From: Isotricha intestinalis
Taxonomy: Eukaryota; Ciliophora; Litostomatea; Vestibuliferida; Isotrichidae
NCBI GenBank assembly: GCA_023807065.1
Contig: JAJJLU010003681.1
Span: 1-38,750, forward strand
Reading direction: 5' to 3'
Length of the DNA stretch: 38,750 nt
In this document: positions 24,635 through 38,487 of the stretch, in pieces
Numbering within the stretch: position 1 is the stretch's first letter
Layout: the number at the start of each line of letters is the position of its first letter
Translations under genes and position numbers: made by a program
The notes under the pieces: model-generated
The model's input: the letters and a program-made list of their open reading frames with translations, nothing else
Told to the model about the DNA's origin: nothing
Database searches by the model: none

Positions 24635-25222
24635 ATGCAGAAATGGAATATTAAATCAATAATATTTACTGCATTTATTCTCGAATTAATTCAATCAATT
24701 AATTCAAAAACAATAAATGAAAATAAAAATGAATCACCAAAAAGCAAAAAAGATGAAGAAAAAAATAATTTAATATATTTAACAATTCAACTATGTCAAT
24801 CCTGATCTTATAAAAGTTACTTTATGGAAATTCAACAAATCATGGAGAAAAATTTTAAAAATGTGATAGTGAATGGAGAAGAATATCCTTTATCACAAAC
24901 ACGAAAATTTTTATCTTATTCAGTAATGGCAATTCAATTTTTAATATTTACATTATTAATATTATGTAATTTTAAAAATATTATTAATTCAATACTACCA
25001 AATAATTTAATTGATTGGATTGGAGAGAATAAATTGCGTACTTTCTTTATTACTTTTTTTATGGGAAATTTATTACAAAGTAATATTTCTAATACAGGAG
25101 CTTTTGAAATTTTTTATAATGGAAATCAAATTTGGTCTAAACTTAATATGGGTGATGTACCTAATATTAATCAATTAATTCAAATGCTTATTCAGAATGG
25201 AGCTAATTTTATTAAAGTTTAA
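24635..25222 (+). CDS. SELENOT: Selenoprotein T (UGA read as selenocysteine)
   Basis: A 195-aa thioredoxin-like ER oxidoreductase, the same length as typical SelT. From ATG 24635 the frame crosses TGA at 24803-24805 and continues to TAA at 25220-25222. The redox motif is CQSU (Cys54, Sec57), compared with CVSU in animals. Residues 1-24 form a signal peptide or anchor. A hydrophobic segment lies at about 96-113. The C-terminal SelT signature includes WIGENK, NTGAFEI (about 153-159) and IWSKL. An internal ATG at 24824 opens a TGA-free frame of 132 aa, but starting there would discard the signal peptide and the whole active site. A SECIS follows 36 nt after the stop. It lies 125 bp downstream of dynein on the same strand. 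Confidence 0.94.
24803..24805 (+). other. Selenocysteine codon (TGA)
   Basis: The in-frame TGA sits at the C-x-x-U position of SelT (residue 57), followed by SYKSYF. Conservation of the flanking SelT sequence on both sides and the SECIS about 470 nt downstream show it is recoded and not a stop. Confidence 0.93.
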
Positions 25223-27462: not shown

Positions 27463-27617
27463 AAAAAGAAATGGGAGTAGACCCTATTTCAAAATTTAGG
27501 TTCTTTTCAACTCTCCCTTGGACTGGTTGGGTAAGATTAATTCTCTTTTTTGAGATGTTTAATTACATGGGGATTATAGACGACTTAAAAGTCGAGTTTT
27601 TTCCAATACCAGTCATA
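27463..27617 (-). ncRNA. TER: Candidate ciliate telomerase RNA
   Basis: About 153 nt, within the roughly 150-210 nt seen for ciliate telomerase RNAs, and clearly richer in G+C than its surroundings. On the minus strand, in order: stem I 5' strand 27614-27603 (GACTGG, then TTGG after a TA bulge) pairing with 27530-27521; stem II 27594-27581, a 5-bp hairpin CGACT/AGTCG with a 4-nt loop; a 5-nt spacer; template candidate AATCCCCA at 27575-27568; a region with alternative A/T hairpins where the pseudoknot would be (27567-27531); the stem I 3' strand; then 3' stem-loop IV, whose base pairs 27517-27513 with 27477-27473; and a terminal T5 at 27467-27463, a Pol III stop. The block from stem II into the template, GTC-x2-T-x-A-x-CCCCA, parallels Tetrahymena. 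The pseudoknot was not resolved by eye. Confidence 0.82.
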
Positions 27618-27635
27618 TTAATTTATTCATAACTC

Positions 27636-27677
27636 TTTATATATGATTGTAAAGATTAAAAAAATTTTTATGGGTTA
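27636..27677 (-). promoter_or_regulatory. Pol III type 3 promoter of the telomerase RNA: PSE and TATA box
   Basis: On the minus strand, TAACCCATAAA at 27677-27667 differs at one base from the ciliate PSE consensus TGACCCATNAA as I recall it. TATATAAA lies at 27643-27636. Taking 27616 as the first base, the PSE is at about -61 to -51 and the TATA at about -27 to -20, the spacing of U6-type Pol III genes. It occupies the gap behind the stop of the WD40 gene (27768). Confidence 0.8.
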
Positions 27678-34624: not shown

Positions 34625-36940
34625 ATGGATGAAAGTTGGCTTATTTCTAAAACATTGAATTATCAAGATTTACAAAATATAGTTGCATTTGAAAATCATG
34701 AGGGTATGTTAATGAATATAGAAGGAGAATTAATTGAAAATGAAGAAGAACTTGATAAATATATAAAATTTGAAGAATATCAAGATTTTTTAAATAAATT
34801 TGAAGAATATTTTAAACAAAATCAAATTGAGCTTTTGAACAATGAAAAAGATATTTTAAAATATTTTTACGAAAATGAAATAAAATGTTTAAAATACATT
34901 TATATTTTTTATAAAGATAAACAAAAACAAAAACACTTATTAATTAAAGTCTTAGATTATCTTTTAATATCATTATTTAGAATGAATTCAAGTATAATTG
35001 AAAAAACTCAAGAAATAGAAAATAAATTTTCACTGATTAATGAAGAATATTATACAGGAGAAAAGAATTTAGATTTAAGTCCTGAAACATATAAAAGTAA
35101 AATTAAAAAAGTCTTTCAAAATGAAAATATTCCTCATTTTTTATTAAGAAGAGGAATAAAAATTTTAAAAGAAATTCAAAAATATTATGAAAAAAATTTT
35201 TTAGATTTAGAAAATGAAAATGAAAATGAAGAAAAAATAAATGAAAATTTTGATTATGATAATAATATTAAAGAGTCTTCCAATCAAGAAAATATTTTTG
35301 ATATTATTAAACAATTTTATTCTCAAGAAAAAAAACCTTTTCTTGAAGATTATGACTTAGAATTAATTCAATATTTTTTTATTATTTTTGTTTATGTAGT
35401 AAAAAAAATAAATAATAATGAAGGGATTAACCAAATAAACAATAATTTAGATATATTAGAAAAACATTTCCGTTTTAAATTAAAAGAAAAATTATCTGAA
35501 TTAGATTATTCTGATGAAGGAATTGAAATCACTTTTCAATATTACATAAGAGAAAACTTTGAAAATAAAAAAAATTTATTTCCTTTTATTATTGCATCTT
35601 TTTGTTATATTCTTTTTGAATTAAAAAATATGAATAATCAAATTGAAATATTCACTGAATTAGTTATTTTATTTATTAATAATATTAAATATTTTGATTT
35701 CTCTGGTATTTTAAATACTTTTTTAAATCAAGTTGAAAAAATAGAAGATTATTATAATATCTTTCAAATAAAAAATGAAAGTAATAAAAAAAAAAAAGTT
35801 ATTAATCGTTATAAAGTAGATAATAATTTTGAAGAAAATCAAAATTTCAAACTTTATGAAAAAGAAAATAATATTTTTGAAAATAATTTTGACTATTATG
35901 ACAAAAATAAATCTGAAAATAATAATAATATAAACAATAATATCTTAATAAATAATAATAATAATATTATAAACAATTATTACATAATAAATAATAATAA
36001 TAATAATAATGAGAATAAAATAGAAAAAAAAGAAAGAAAATTACAAAATTTTAAATTATTTCATTGCAAAGATATAATAGCGGTAATGAAAGGATGTAAA
36101 GATAATATGATAAAAAGAAGATTTGAATCTTTAGTGGAAGAAGAAGAAGAAATAGAATCAAAAGAAAAAAGCAATTTGTTGTTGAACATATTAAATTGGG
36201 CAAAAGCAAAATTTAAAATGGTAGATGATAAAAAAAACACAATAGAAAAAAAATTAAGATTATATCCTTTAAATAAGGAAATAAAAGGGAATATAATAAC
36301 AATATTTATATCAGGTTTCTATTCATCAGATTCAGAAAAAGAGAAAGAATGGGAAAATTTTACAAATGAATATTTAAAATATTTTCCAAATTCAAATATA
36401 TATTATTATAATTGGCCATCAAGTAATTTAAATATATTTGATTTTGTGTCTGAATTATTAATTCATAGAGGAGAATTTGAAAGAGCAACAAAAAGAGCAG
36501 AATGTTGTGGAAGAATTTTAGGTAATTTAATTCAATCTAAATTATTTTTTGATGATTTTAAAATAAATTTAGTTGCTTTTAGTTTAGGTAATCATGTTAT
36601 TAAAAATTGTTTAAAAGAATTATATGAACAAAAAATTTTCAATGTTATTAATAATATTATTTTTATTGCTGGAGCTACTAATATTAGTCAAGATGAAGAT
36701 TTTATCAAAATTTTTAATCATTGTAGTGGAAATATTATCAATTGTTATTCTAAAAGAGATTTAGCTTTAGTTTATAGATTTTCCATTGATTTAAATTTAG
36801 CTATTGGAAGACATAAATTAATAATTAAAGGCTGTGACAACATTTATAATTATAAATCTTCAAATTTACATCTTTTATATAGAAAAAATATGGGAAAAAT
36901 TTGTAAAGATATTATTAAAAATTTAAAGAACAATAATTAA
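34625..36940 (+). CDS. DUF726 (TMCO4-like) alpha/beta-hydrolase protein
   Basis: A 771-aa protein. The N-terminal 470 residues are acidic and helical with an Asn-rich tract near 430-465, and are not recognised beyond that. The C-terminal domain (about 550-770) resembles the DUF726/TMCO4 hydrolase family: an opening strand into FISGFYSS, YYYNWPSSNL, the nucleophile elbow AFSLGNH with Ser653, YSKRDLAL with Asp712, and SNLHLLY with His749. Together these give a plausible Ser-Asp-His triad. The elbow has Ala in place of the first Gly of GxSxG. Family members in animals carry transmembrane segments, but I see no convincing one here. The substrate is unknown. The last 420 codons are repeated at 37223-38487. 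Confidence 0.82.
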   Translation: MDESWLISKTLNYQDLQNIVAFENHEGMLMNIEGELIENEEELDKYIKFEEYQDFLNKFEEYFKQNQIELLNNEKDILKYFYENEIKCLKYIYIFYKDKQKQKHLLIKVLDYLLISLFRMNSSIIEKTQEIENKFSLINEEYYTGEKNLDLSPETYKSKIKKVFQNENIPHFLLRRGIKILKEIQKYYEKNFLDLENENENEEKINENFDYDNNIKESSNQENIFDIIKQFYSQEKKPFLEDYDLELIQYFFIIFVYVVKKINNNEGINQINNNLDILEKHFRFKLKEKLSELDYSDEGIEITFQYYIRENFENKKNLFPFIIASFCYILFELKNMNNQIEIFTELVILFINNIKYFDFSGILNTFLNQVEKIEDYYNIFQIKNESNKKKKVINRYKVDNNFEENQNFKLYEKENNIFENNFDYYDKNKSENNNNINNNILINNNNNIINNYYIINNNNNNNENKIEKKERKLQNFKLFHCKDIIAVMKGCKDNMIKRRFESLVEEEEEIESKEKSNLLLNILNWAKAKFKMVDDKKNTIEKKLRLYPLNKEIKGNIITIFISGFYSSDSEKEKEWENFTNEYLKYFPNSNIYYYNWPSSNLNIFDFVSELLIHRGEFERATKRAECCGRILGNLIQSKLFFDDFKINLVAFSLGNHVIKNCLKELYEQKIFNVINNIIFIAGATNISQDEDFIKIFNHCSGNIINCYSKRDLALVYRFSIDLNLAIGRHKLIIKGCDNIYNYKSSNLHLLYRKNMGKICKDIIKNLKNNN

Positions 36941-37101
36941 AATTACATTTATTTTTTTAATATTTTATTTATTTTTTCAAGAAATTGAGTTTTAAATTGT
37001 AATATAAATAGTTTTTTCTATGTTTATTAATTATGCTTCTGGATCAATGGTTTATAATTCTTGATATATATTTTGAACAAAATAAATTATTGTTGAACTT
37101 A
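35676..37101 (+). repeat. Direct repeat, copy 1 (1426 bp)
   Basis: Matches 37223-38648 at a constant offset of 1547 with no difference in the stretches compared by eye; the encoded proteins are identical over the 284 residues available. It contains codons 352-771 of the hydrolase gene, its 3' flank, and the 3' part of the HPt pseudogene. The match ends abruptly on both sides. Confidence 0.95.
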
Positions 37102-37166
37102 ACTCTTTCTTCAACAAAATCATTTATTACGTCATCATAATTTATTTCACAATAGTCTTTTGACTT
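36960..37166 (-). pseudogene. Decayed 5' fragment of the HPt gene
   Basis: Read on the minus strand from 37166, this segment aligns with the start of the HPt gene at 8338. The start codon is changed to AAG, then DYCEINYDD and, after a frameshift, IIYFVQNIYQEL are recognisable, followed by in-frame stops. By eye roughly four bases in five match over 37021-37140, and similarity fades near 36975. The A-rich leader (37167-about 37190) also resembles that before 8338. It ends before the HPt histidine region can be read with confidence. It lies tail-to-tail with the hydrolase gene and is split by the repeat boundary at 37101. Confidence 0.85.
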
Positions 37167-37222
37167 TTTATTATTTTTTTATTTTTTAAATTGATATCTA
37201 TTTTTTCTGAATATTTTTTTAT
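37102..37222. other. 121-bp unique spacer between the direct repeats
   Basis: It holds the 5' part of the HPt pseudogene and its leader, which are not repeated at the right end. Its right edge joins hydrolase codon 352 at 37223 within a short A/T stretch. Confidence 0.8.
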
Positions 37223-38487
37223 TTAATAATATTAAATATTTTGATTTCTCTGGTATTTTAAATACTTTTTTAAATCAAGTTGAAAAAATAGAAGATTATT
37301 ATAATATCTTTCAAATAAAAAATGAAAGTAATAAAAAAAAAAAAGTTATTAATCGTTATAAAGTAGATAATAATTTTGAAGAAAATCAAAATTTCAAACT
37401 TTATGAAAAAGAAAATAATATTTTTGAAAATAATTTTGACTATTATGACAAAAATAAATCTGAAAATAATAATAATATAAACAATAATATCTTAATAAAT
37501 AATAATAATAATATTATAAACAATTATTACATAATAAATAATAATAATAATAATAATGAGAATAAAATAGAAAAAAAAGAAAGAAAATTACAAAATTTTA
37601 AATTATTTCATTGCAAAGATATAATAGCGGTAATGAAAGGATGTAAAGATAATATGATAAAAAGAAGATTTGAATCTTTAGTGGAAGAAGAAGAAGAAAT
37701 AGAATCAAAAGAAAAAAGCAATTTGTTGTTGAACATATTAAATTGGGCAAAAGCAAAATTTAAAATGGTAGATGATAAAAAAAACACAATAGAAAAAAAA
37801 TTAAGATTATATCCTTTAAATAAGGAAATAAAAGGGAATATAATAACAATATTTATATCAGGTTTCTATTCATCAGATTCAGAAAAAGAGAAAGAATGGG
37901 AAAATTTTACAAATGAATATTTAAAATATTTTCCAAATTCAAATATATATTATTATAATTGGCCATCAAGTAATTTAAATATATTTGATTTTGTGTCTGA
38001 ATTATTAATTCATAGAGGAGAATTTGAAAGAGCAACAAAAAGAGCAGAATGTTGTGGAAGAATTTTAGGTAATTTAATTCAATCTAAATTATTTTTTGAT
38101 GATTTTAAAATAAATTTAGTTGCTTTTAGTTTAGGTAATCATGTTATTAAAAATTGTTTAAAAGAATTATATGAACAAAAAATTTTCAATGTTATTAATA
38201 ATATTATTTTTATTGCTGGAGCTACTAATATTAGTCAAGATGAAGATTTTATCAAAATTTTTAATCATTGTAGTGGAAATATTATCAATTGTTATTCTAA
38301 AAGAGATTTAGCTTTAGTTTATAGATTTTCCATTGATTTAAATTTAGCTATTGGAAGACATAAATTAATAATTAAAGGCTGTGACAACATTTATAATTAT
38401 AAATCTTCAAATTTACATCTTTTATATAGAAAAAATATGGGAAAAATTTGTAAAGATATTATTAAAAATTTAAAGAACAATAATTAA
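37223..38487 (+). pseudogene. 5'-truncated duplicate of the DUF726 hydrolase gene
   Basis: It carries codons 352-771 of the gene at 34625 unchanged, including the Ser-Asp-His residues and the stop codon. The original promoter and first 351 codons are missing. The first in-frame ATG is at 37633 and would give 284 aa containing the complete hydrolase domain, so expression is conceivable if a promoter is provided by the spacer. It may also be an assembly or amplification artefact rather than a real locus. Confidence 0.8.

Follow-up and report, generated by a model that had tools for sequence, protein, structure and literature searches.

The window, the whole stretch of 38,750 bases that was analysed, is one complete contig of an assembly of 57.3 Mb in 2,153 contigs. 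Its GC content lies between 14 and 31% in 500-base steps. It encodes a dynein heavy chain of 4,561 residues, a sperm-tail-repeat protein, a kinase and a WD40 protein. The first-pass annotation had assigned the DNA to a ciliate using the standard genetic code, and all 13 of the long frames inspected (from 21 listed) are indeed open in that code, with TAA as the stop codon in 12 and TGA in one. A small frame at 24824-25222, adjoining the dynein gene, matches Rdx (selenoprotein W/T-like) with an E-value of 1e-7. Two genes at 34625-38487 match DUF726, and the same region contains a 300-nt repeat, 99% identical and with a spacing of 1547 bases (35665-35964 and 37212-37511), which points either to a recent tandem duplication or to an artefact of assembly close to the contig end.

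The minus strand carries a candidate telomerase RNA with the following parts, numbered from nt 1 at position 27613.

27463-27613, minus strand: candidate telomerase RNA, 151 nt; 3' end set by T5
27603-27613, minus strand: stem I, 5' strand (nt 1-6 and 9-11), from the fold
27522-27530, minus strand: stem I, 3' strand (nt 84-92), from the fold
27581-27594, minus strand: stem II, putative template boundary hairpin (nt 20-33), from the fold; C-G pair at its base
27568-27575, minus strand: putative template AAUCCCCA (nt 39-46), an exact permutation of the CCCCAAT telomere repeat
27536-27563, minus strand: stem III region, hairpin with an A6 loop (nt 51-78), from the fold with the template kept open
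27473-27517, minus strand: stem IV, terminal hairpin (nt 97-141), from the fold
27463-27467, minus strand: T5 terminator and U tail (nt 147-151), from the sequence

On this strand the first-pass annotation had read, in order, stem I, a 5-bp hairpin, a template 5 nt further on, the return strand of stem I, a terminal hairpin and T5. Every one of these parts was found: the boundary hairpin lies 5' of the template, stem I encloses both, and the terminal stem IV follows. Stem I pairs ACUGGU with ACCAGU (6 bp) and UGG with CCA (3 bp). Stem II (CGACU-UUUA-AGUCG) consists of 5 bp with a 4-nt loop, and the five nucleotides UCUAU separate this hairpin from the template AAUCCCCA. The terminal hairpin is closed by GGGAG/CUCCC, after which the RNA ends in U5. 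The GC enrichment that had marked the island was borne out: the GC fraction is 0.338 (34%) across the 151 nt and falls to 0.095 and 0.130 (9.5% and 13%) in the 200 nt on either side. The distribution of T-runs was likewise as annotated, the plus strand containing two T6 runs and the minus strand two internal T4 runs, with nothing longer before the final T5.

The probability of such a fold arising by chance was estimated by holding the template fixed and dinucleotide-shuffling the sequence on both sides of it 4000 times. The hairpin arose in 192 shuffles, stem I with 6 bp or more in 1139 and the terminal helix in 2801; all three elements occurred together in 26, making the fold only moderately improbable. 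The folding energy of the candidate was unexceptional (z = −1.39, with 20 of 200 shuffles equally good) and was dropped as evidence because that of the plus strand is no worse (z = −1.66; equalled by 12 of 200 shuffles). The fold by itself would not be decisive; the weight of the assignment rests on the telomere match and the promoter. Enumeration of H-type pseudoknots 3' of the template (nt 47-86) gave strained candidates only, none of them convincing; in the best of these, a 5-bp stem would need to be spanned by a loop of 1 nt. The pseudoknots of ciliate telomerase RNAs are described in PMC5855555 as small and possibly dependent on TERT for their formation.

The template had been noted as containing C4, and it proved to match the genome's own telomere repeat exactly. 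Other contig ends of the same genome are capped by (CCCCAAT)n; CCCCAAT is absent from the window's own contig. A sample of telomeres was drawn from 60 contig starts and from 5 right ends selected for their match, and 59 of these 65 ends were parsed as capped (54 of the 60 starts and the 5 selected right ends). They contain 262 units, comprising 250 CCCCAAT, 7 CCCCAT, 4 CCCCAAA and a single CCCCAAAA. The CCCCAT units are spread over 5 ends, and the CCCCAAA and CCCCAAAA units over 3 ends; the CCCCAAA units are not explained by the template. The candidate template AAUCCCCA (octamer AATCCCCA) is an exact 8-nt permutation of CCCCAAT, one nucleotide over the length of the repeat. There is one other site with a telomere octamer in the window, within the dynein gene. 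Synthesis of the main unit, CCCCAAT, would involve realignment on one base pair only, which is very short and is the oddest feature of the candidate. The base following the template is U47, through which a product ending in GGGGAT could realign by two pairs; such a realignment would give the observed CCCCAT units.

Telomeres of CCCCAAT have been reported in the litostome Entodinium caudatum (PMC6211341). Two further papers describe them in the litostomes Balantidium ctenopharyngodoni (PMC10978948) and, together with the standard code, Muniziella cunhai (PMC11316547). The repeat and the standard code of the present genome suggest that its source, too, is a litostome. A query of a viral contig collection with the CCCCAAT repeat returned 18 stretches, two of which were inspected. 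IMGVR_UViG_3300010998_001116 (3253 bases) has CCCCAAT at both ends, flanking one frame of 928 residues that by eye resembles an SNF2-type helicase. IMGVR_UViG_3300028833_000049 (2299 bases) carries CCCCAAT telomeres in an internal, head-to-head arrangement. Both look like ciliate nanochromosomes filed as viruses.

Two promoter-like features lie upstream of the candidate.

27666-27677, minus strand: TAACCCATAAAA, a PSE/USE-like upstream element at −64; the same 12-mer precedes U2 by 58 nt
27635-27643, minus strand: TATA box TATATAAAG, at −30; the identical word lies at −30 in both U6 genes

Two U6 genes were located in the genome with a covariance model, and both share with the candidate the words CCATNAAAA at −60 and TATATAAAG at −30. 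The start of each U6 RNA was taken from the Rfam model; the 5' end of the candidate was placed at 27613 on the basis of the 21-nt distance from TATATAAAG common to both U6 genes, and this position is the first base of stem I. The promoter points in the direction of the candidate RNA, and the U6-type words and their spacing, together with the terminal T5, predict a Pol III type 3 promoter. The pattern CCATNAAAA-N20-22-TATATAAAG, which was written with the candidate locus in view, occurs at 3 sites in 57.3 Mb (both U6 genes and the candidate), against 2 for the reversed control; a looser pattern occurs at 4 sites in the genome against 7 for its control. At the control rates, such a site would fall in a given 100-nt stretch about two to six times per million. 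With a word derived from the U6 genes only, the candidate locus has 1 mismatch in 18 and an unrelated site in the window has 2. An initial guess at the promoter (AACCCATAA, a gap of 25-45 nt, TATATA) gave 15 sites, the candidate locus not being among them; the right spacing came from U6.

U2, brought in afterwards as a check, carries TAACCCATAAAA at −58, against −64 in the candidate, and TATATAAA at −32. The gap between the two elements is 8 nt shorter in U2 than in the U6 genes and the candidate (27635-27677), and, as in plants, this distance may be what sets Pol III genes apart from Pol II genes. TAACCCATAAAA is found at 23 sites in the genome against 32 for the reversed control and, being no commoner than the control, has its value in its position. 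Among these 23 sites, a telomere 7-mer or 8-mer follows the element at the candidate locus alone; neither occurs downstream of the element at U2 or at the 21 other sites, and those 21 gave no Rfam match. An upstream element with a template within 200 nt is a published search rule for telomerase RNAs (PMC12133305). In insects the same rule yielded candidates by the thousand, for which support was difficult to obtain in the absence of relatives (PMC9841428), whereas here it leaves one site of 23.

The covariance search suggested by the first-pass annotation, with the Rfam model of ciliate telomerase RNA, gave no match. RF00025 (Telomerase-cil) remained below its gathering score in the window, with nothing on the island up to an E-value of 10, and no match was present among the 48 scored of 3968 candidates in the genome. 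By this test the candidate is not a member of RF00025, a mismatch that we do not count against its functional class. The result would also fit a different Pol III product, an snRNA-like or snoRNA-like small RNA in which a telomere-like octamer is present by chance. The U6-type promoter alone does not specify telomerase, and shuffling the whole candidate 20000 times produced a telomere octamer in 850 cases. However, no Rfam family reached its cut-off in the window, the best weak matches to the island (E-values of 4.2 and 5) being on the other strand, and the octamer occupies the template position, 5 nt past the hairpin and within stem I. Moreover, U6, U2 and RNase MRP RNA were all located elsewhere; the last of these was considered as an identity for the candidate and rejected, the 110 nt upstream of its model match being without the element. 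We regard another Pol III RNA as very improbable.

At E ≤ 0.001 the locus matched only itself in the genome. This bears on whether the locus could be a copy that has decayed or lost its activity, the working telomerase RNA gene lying at another place or in sequence left out of the assembly. The assembly is possibly incomplete, and both the short realignment part and the want of a convincing pseudoknot would be in keeping with decay. A sole match in the genome argues against this, as do promoter words that are as intact as those of the U6 genes, and an inactive copy seems to us exceedingly improbable. RNA relatives of the candidate were sought in two further collections. In the viral contig collection the search patterns returned 0, 51, 12, 16 and at least 120 stretches; the 51, the 12, the 16 and 80 of the at least 120 listed were inspected, and none combines promoter, template and stem. 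The genome contig collection yielded 13 stretches, all recorded as bacterial or archaeal. The neighbouring WD40 protein, used as a query, had no relative in the viral contig collection. Telomerase RNAs evolve too fast for ordinary similarity searches. As no RNA relative was found in these collections, the stems offer no covariation, the usual proof.

The genome encodes both TERT and a partner of the p65 type. A single TERT match was found, in a frame of 1,110 residues whose best match among solved structures is Tetrahymena TERT (6.9e-31). A search of the protein collection identified 36 TERT homologs among 7,991 scored candidates, none with a name. Six La-domain sites were found in the genome, and of three proteins scanned against Pfam one contains La, RRM and xRRM domains. 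The best solved match of this protein is Tetrahymena p65 (1.1e-19), followed by LARP7 (7.8e-17), which we take to be of the human type.

On the strength of its copy of the genome's own telomere repeat and of a promoter of the same kind as that of the U6 genes, we conclude that 27463-27613 on the minus strand is very probably the gene for the telomerase RNA of a ciliate, and most likely of a litostome. This was the central proposal of the first-pass annotation, and it is supported by the telomere-matching template, the U6-type promoter and the presence of genes for TERT and a p65/LARP7-like protein. Transcription, protein binding and copying, as predicted from the sequence, would proceed as follows. 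RNA polymerase III would start at 27613, directed by the upstream element and the U6-kind TATA box, and stop at T5. TERT would grip the RNA at stems I and II, and the p65/LARP7-like protein would grip stem IV and the U tail. TERT would then copy AAUCCCCA into TGGGGATT, adding GGGGATT to chromosome ends, with stem II setting the end of copying. The rare CCCCAT units would arise when copying halts one nucleotide early and the product ending in GGGGAT realigns on A46-U47.

No telomerase RNA of a litostome, Entodinium included, was found in the literature searched, mostly papers outside subscription, and the candidate is perhaps the first of its class. A more specific reading, which we offer tentatively, is that this is the first Litostomatea telomerase RNA and that it has a minimal template of 8 nt for a 7-nt repeat, producing CCCCAAT by 1-bp realignment and the rare CCCCAT by a better-paired realignment of two bases. 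If this is true, the product would be positioned by TERT and anchor sites and not by pairing with the template, perhaps with a much reduced pseudoknot. A short template with a minor CCCCAT unit would provide a simple case in which to study telomerase realignment with minimal pairing. With a litostome example, the known ciliate telomerase RNAs would reach into a class of gut-dwelling species whose chromosomes end in CCCCAAT, and covariance models for ciliates of the rumen and of other guts could be seeded with it.

The closest comparison is with the telomerase RNA of Tetrahymena thermophila, of the RF00025 type, as described in PMC5855555. The two RNAs are similar in length (159 nt in Tetrahymena, 151 nt in the candidate) and share the order of stem I, helix II, template, stem III, return strand of stem I, stem IV and U tail, as well as a C-G pair at the foot of helix II. 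The Tetrahymena RNA is a Pol III transcript, and the predicted promoter suggests that the candidate is one too. The template spans 9 nt for a repeat of 6 nt in Tetrahymena and 8 nt for one of 7 nt in the candidate. Helix II has about 8 bp and a pentaloop in Tetrahymena but 5 bp and a 4-nt loop in the candidate, which, unlike the Tetrahymena RNA, does not match RF00025 and gave no convincing pseudoknot. In plants, algae and other Diaphoretickes, the telomerase RNAs of the Pol III type 3 class studied by Fajkus and colleagues have an upstream element and a TATA box in common with snRNA genes, and a template within 200 nt downstream, as the candidate does; the comparison covered promoter and search rule (PMC12133305). 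The telomerase RNA of Paramecium, according to the same source as for Tetrahymena (PMC5855555), produces a minor telomere variant via template slippage, as the candidate would. The repeat and its variant are different ones in Paramecium, and the candidate's variant is one base shorter.
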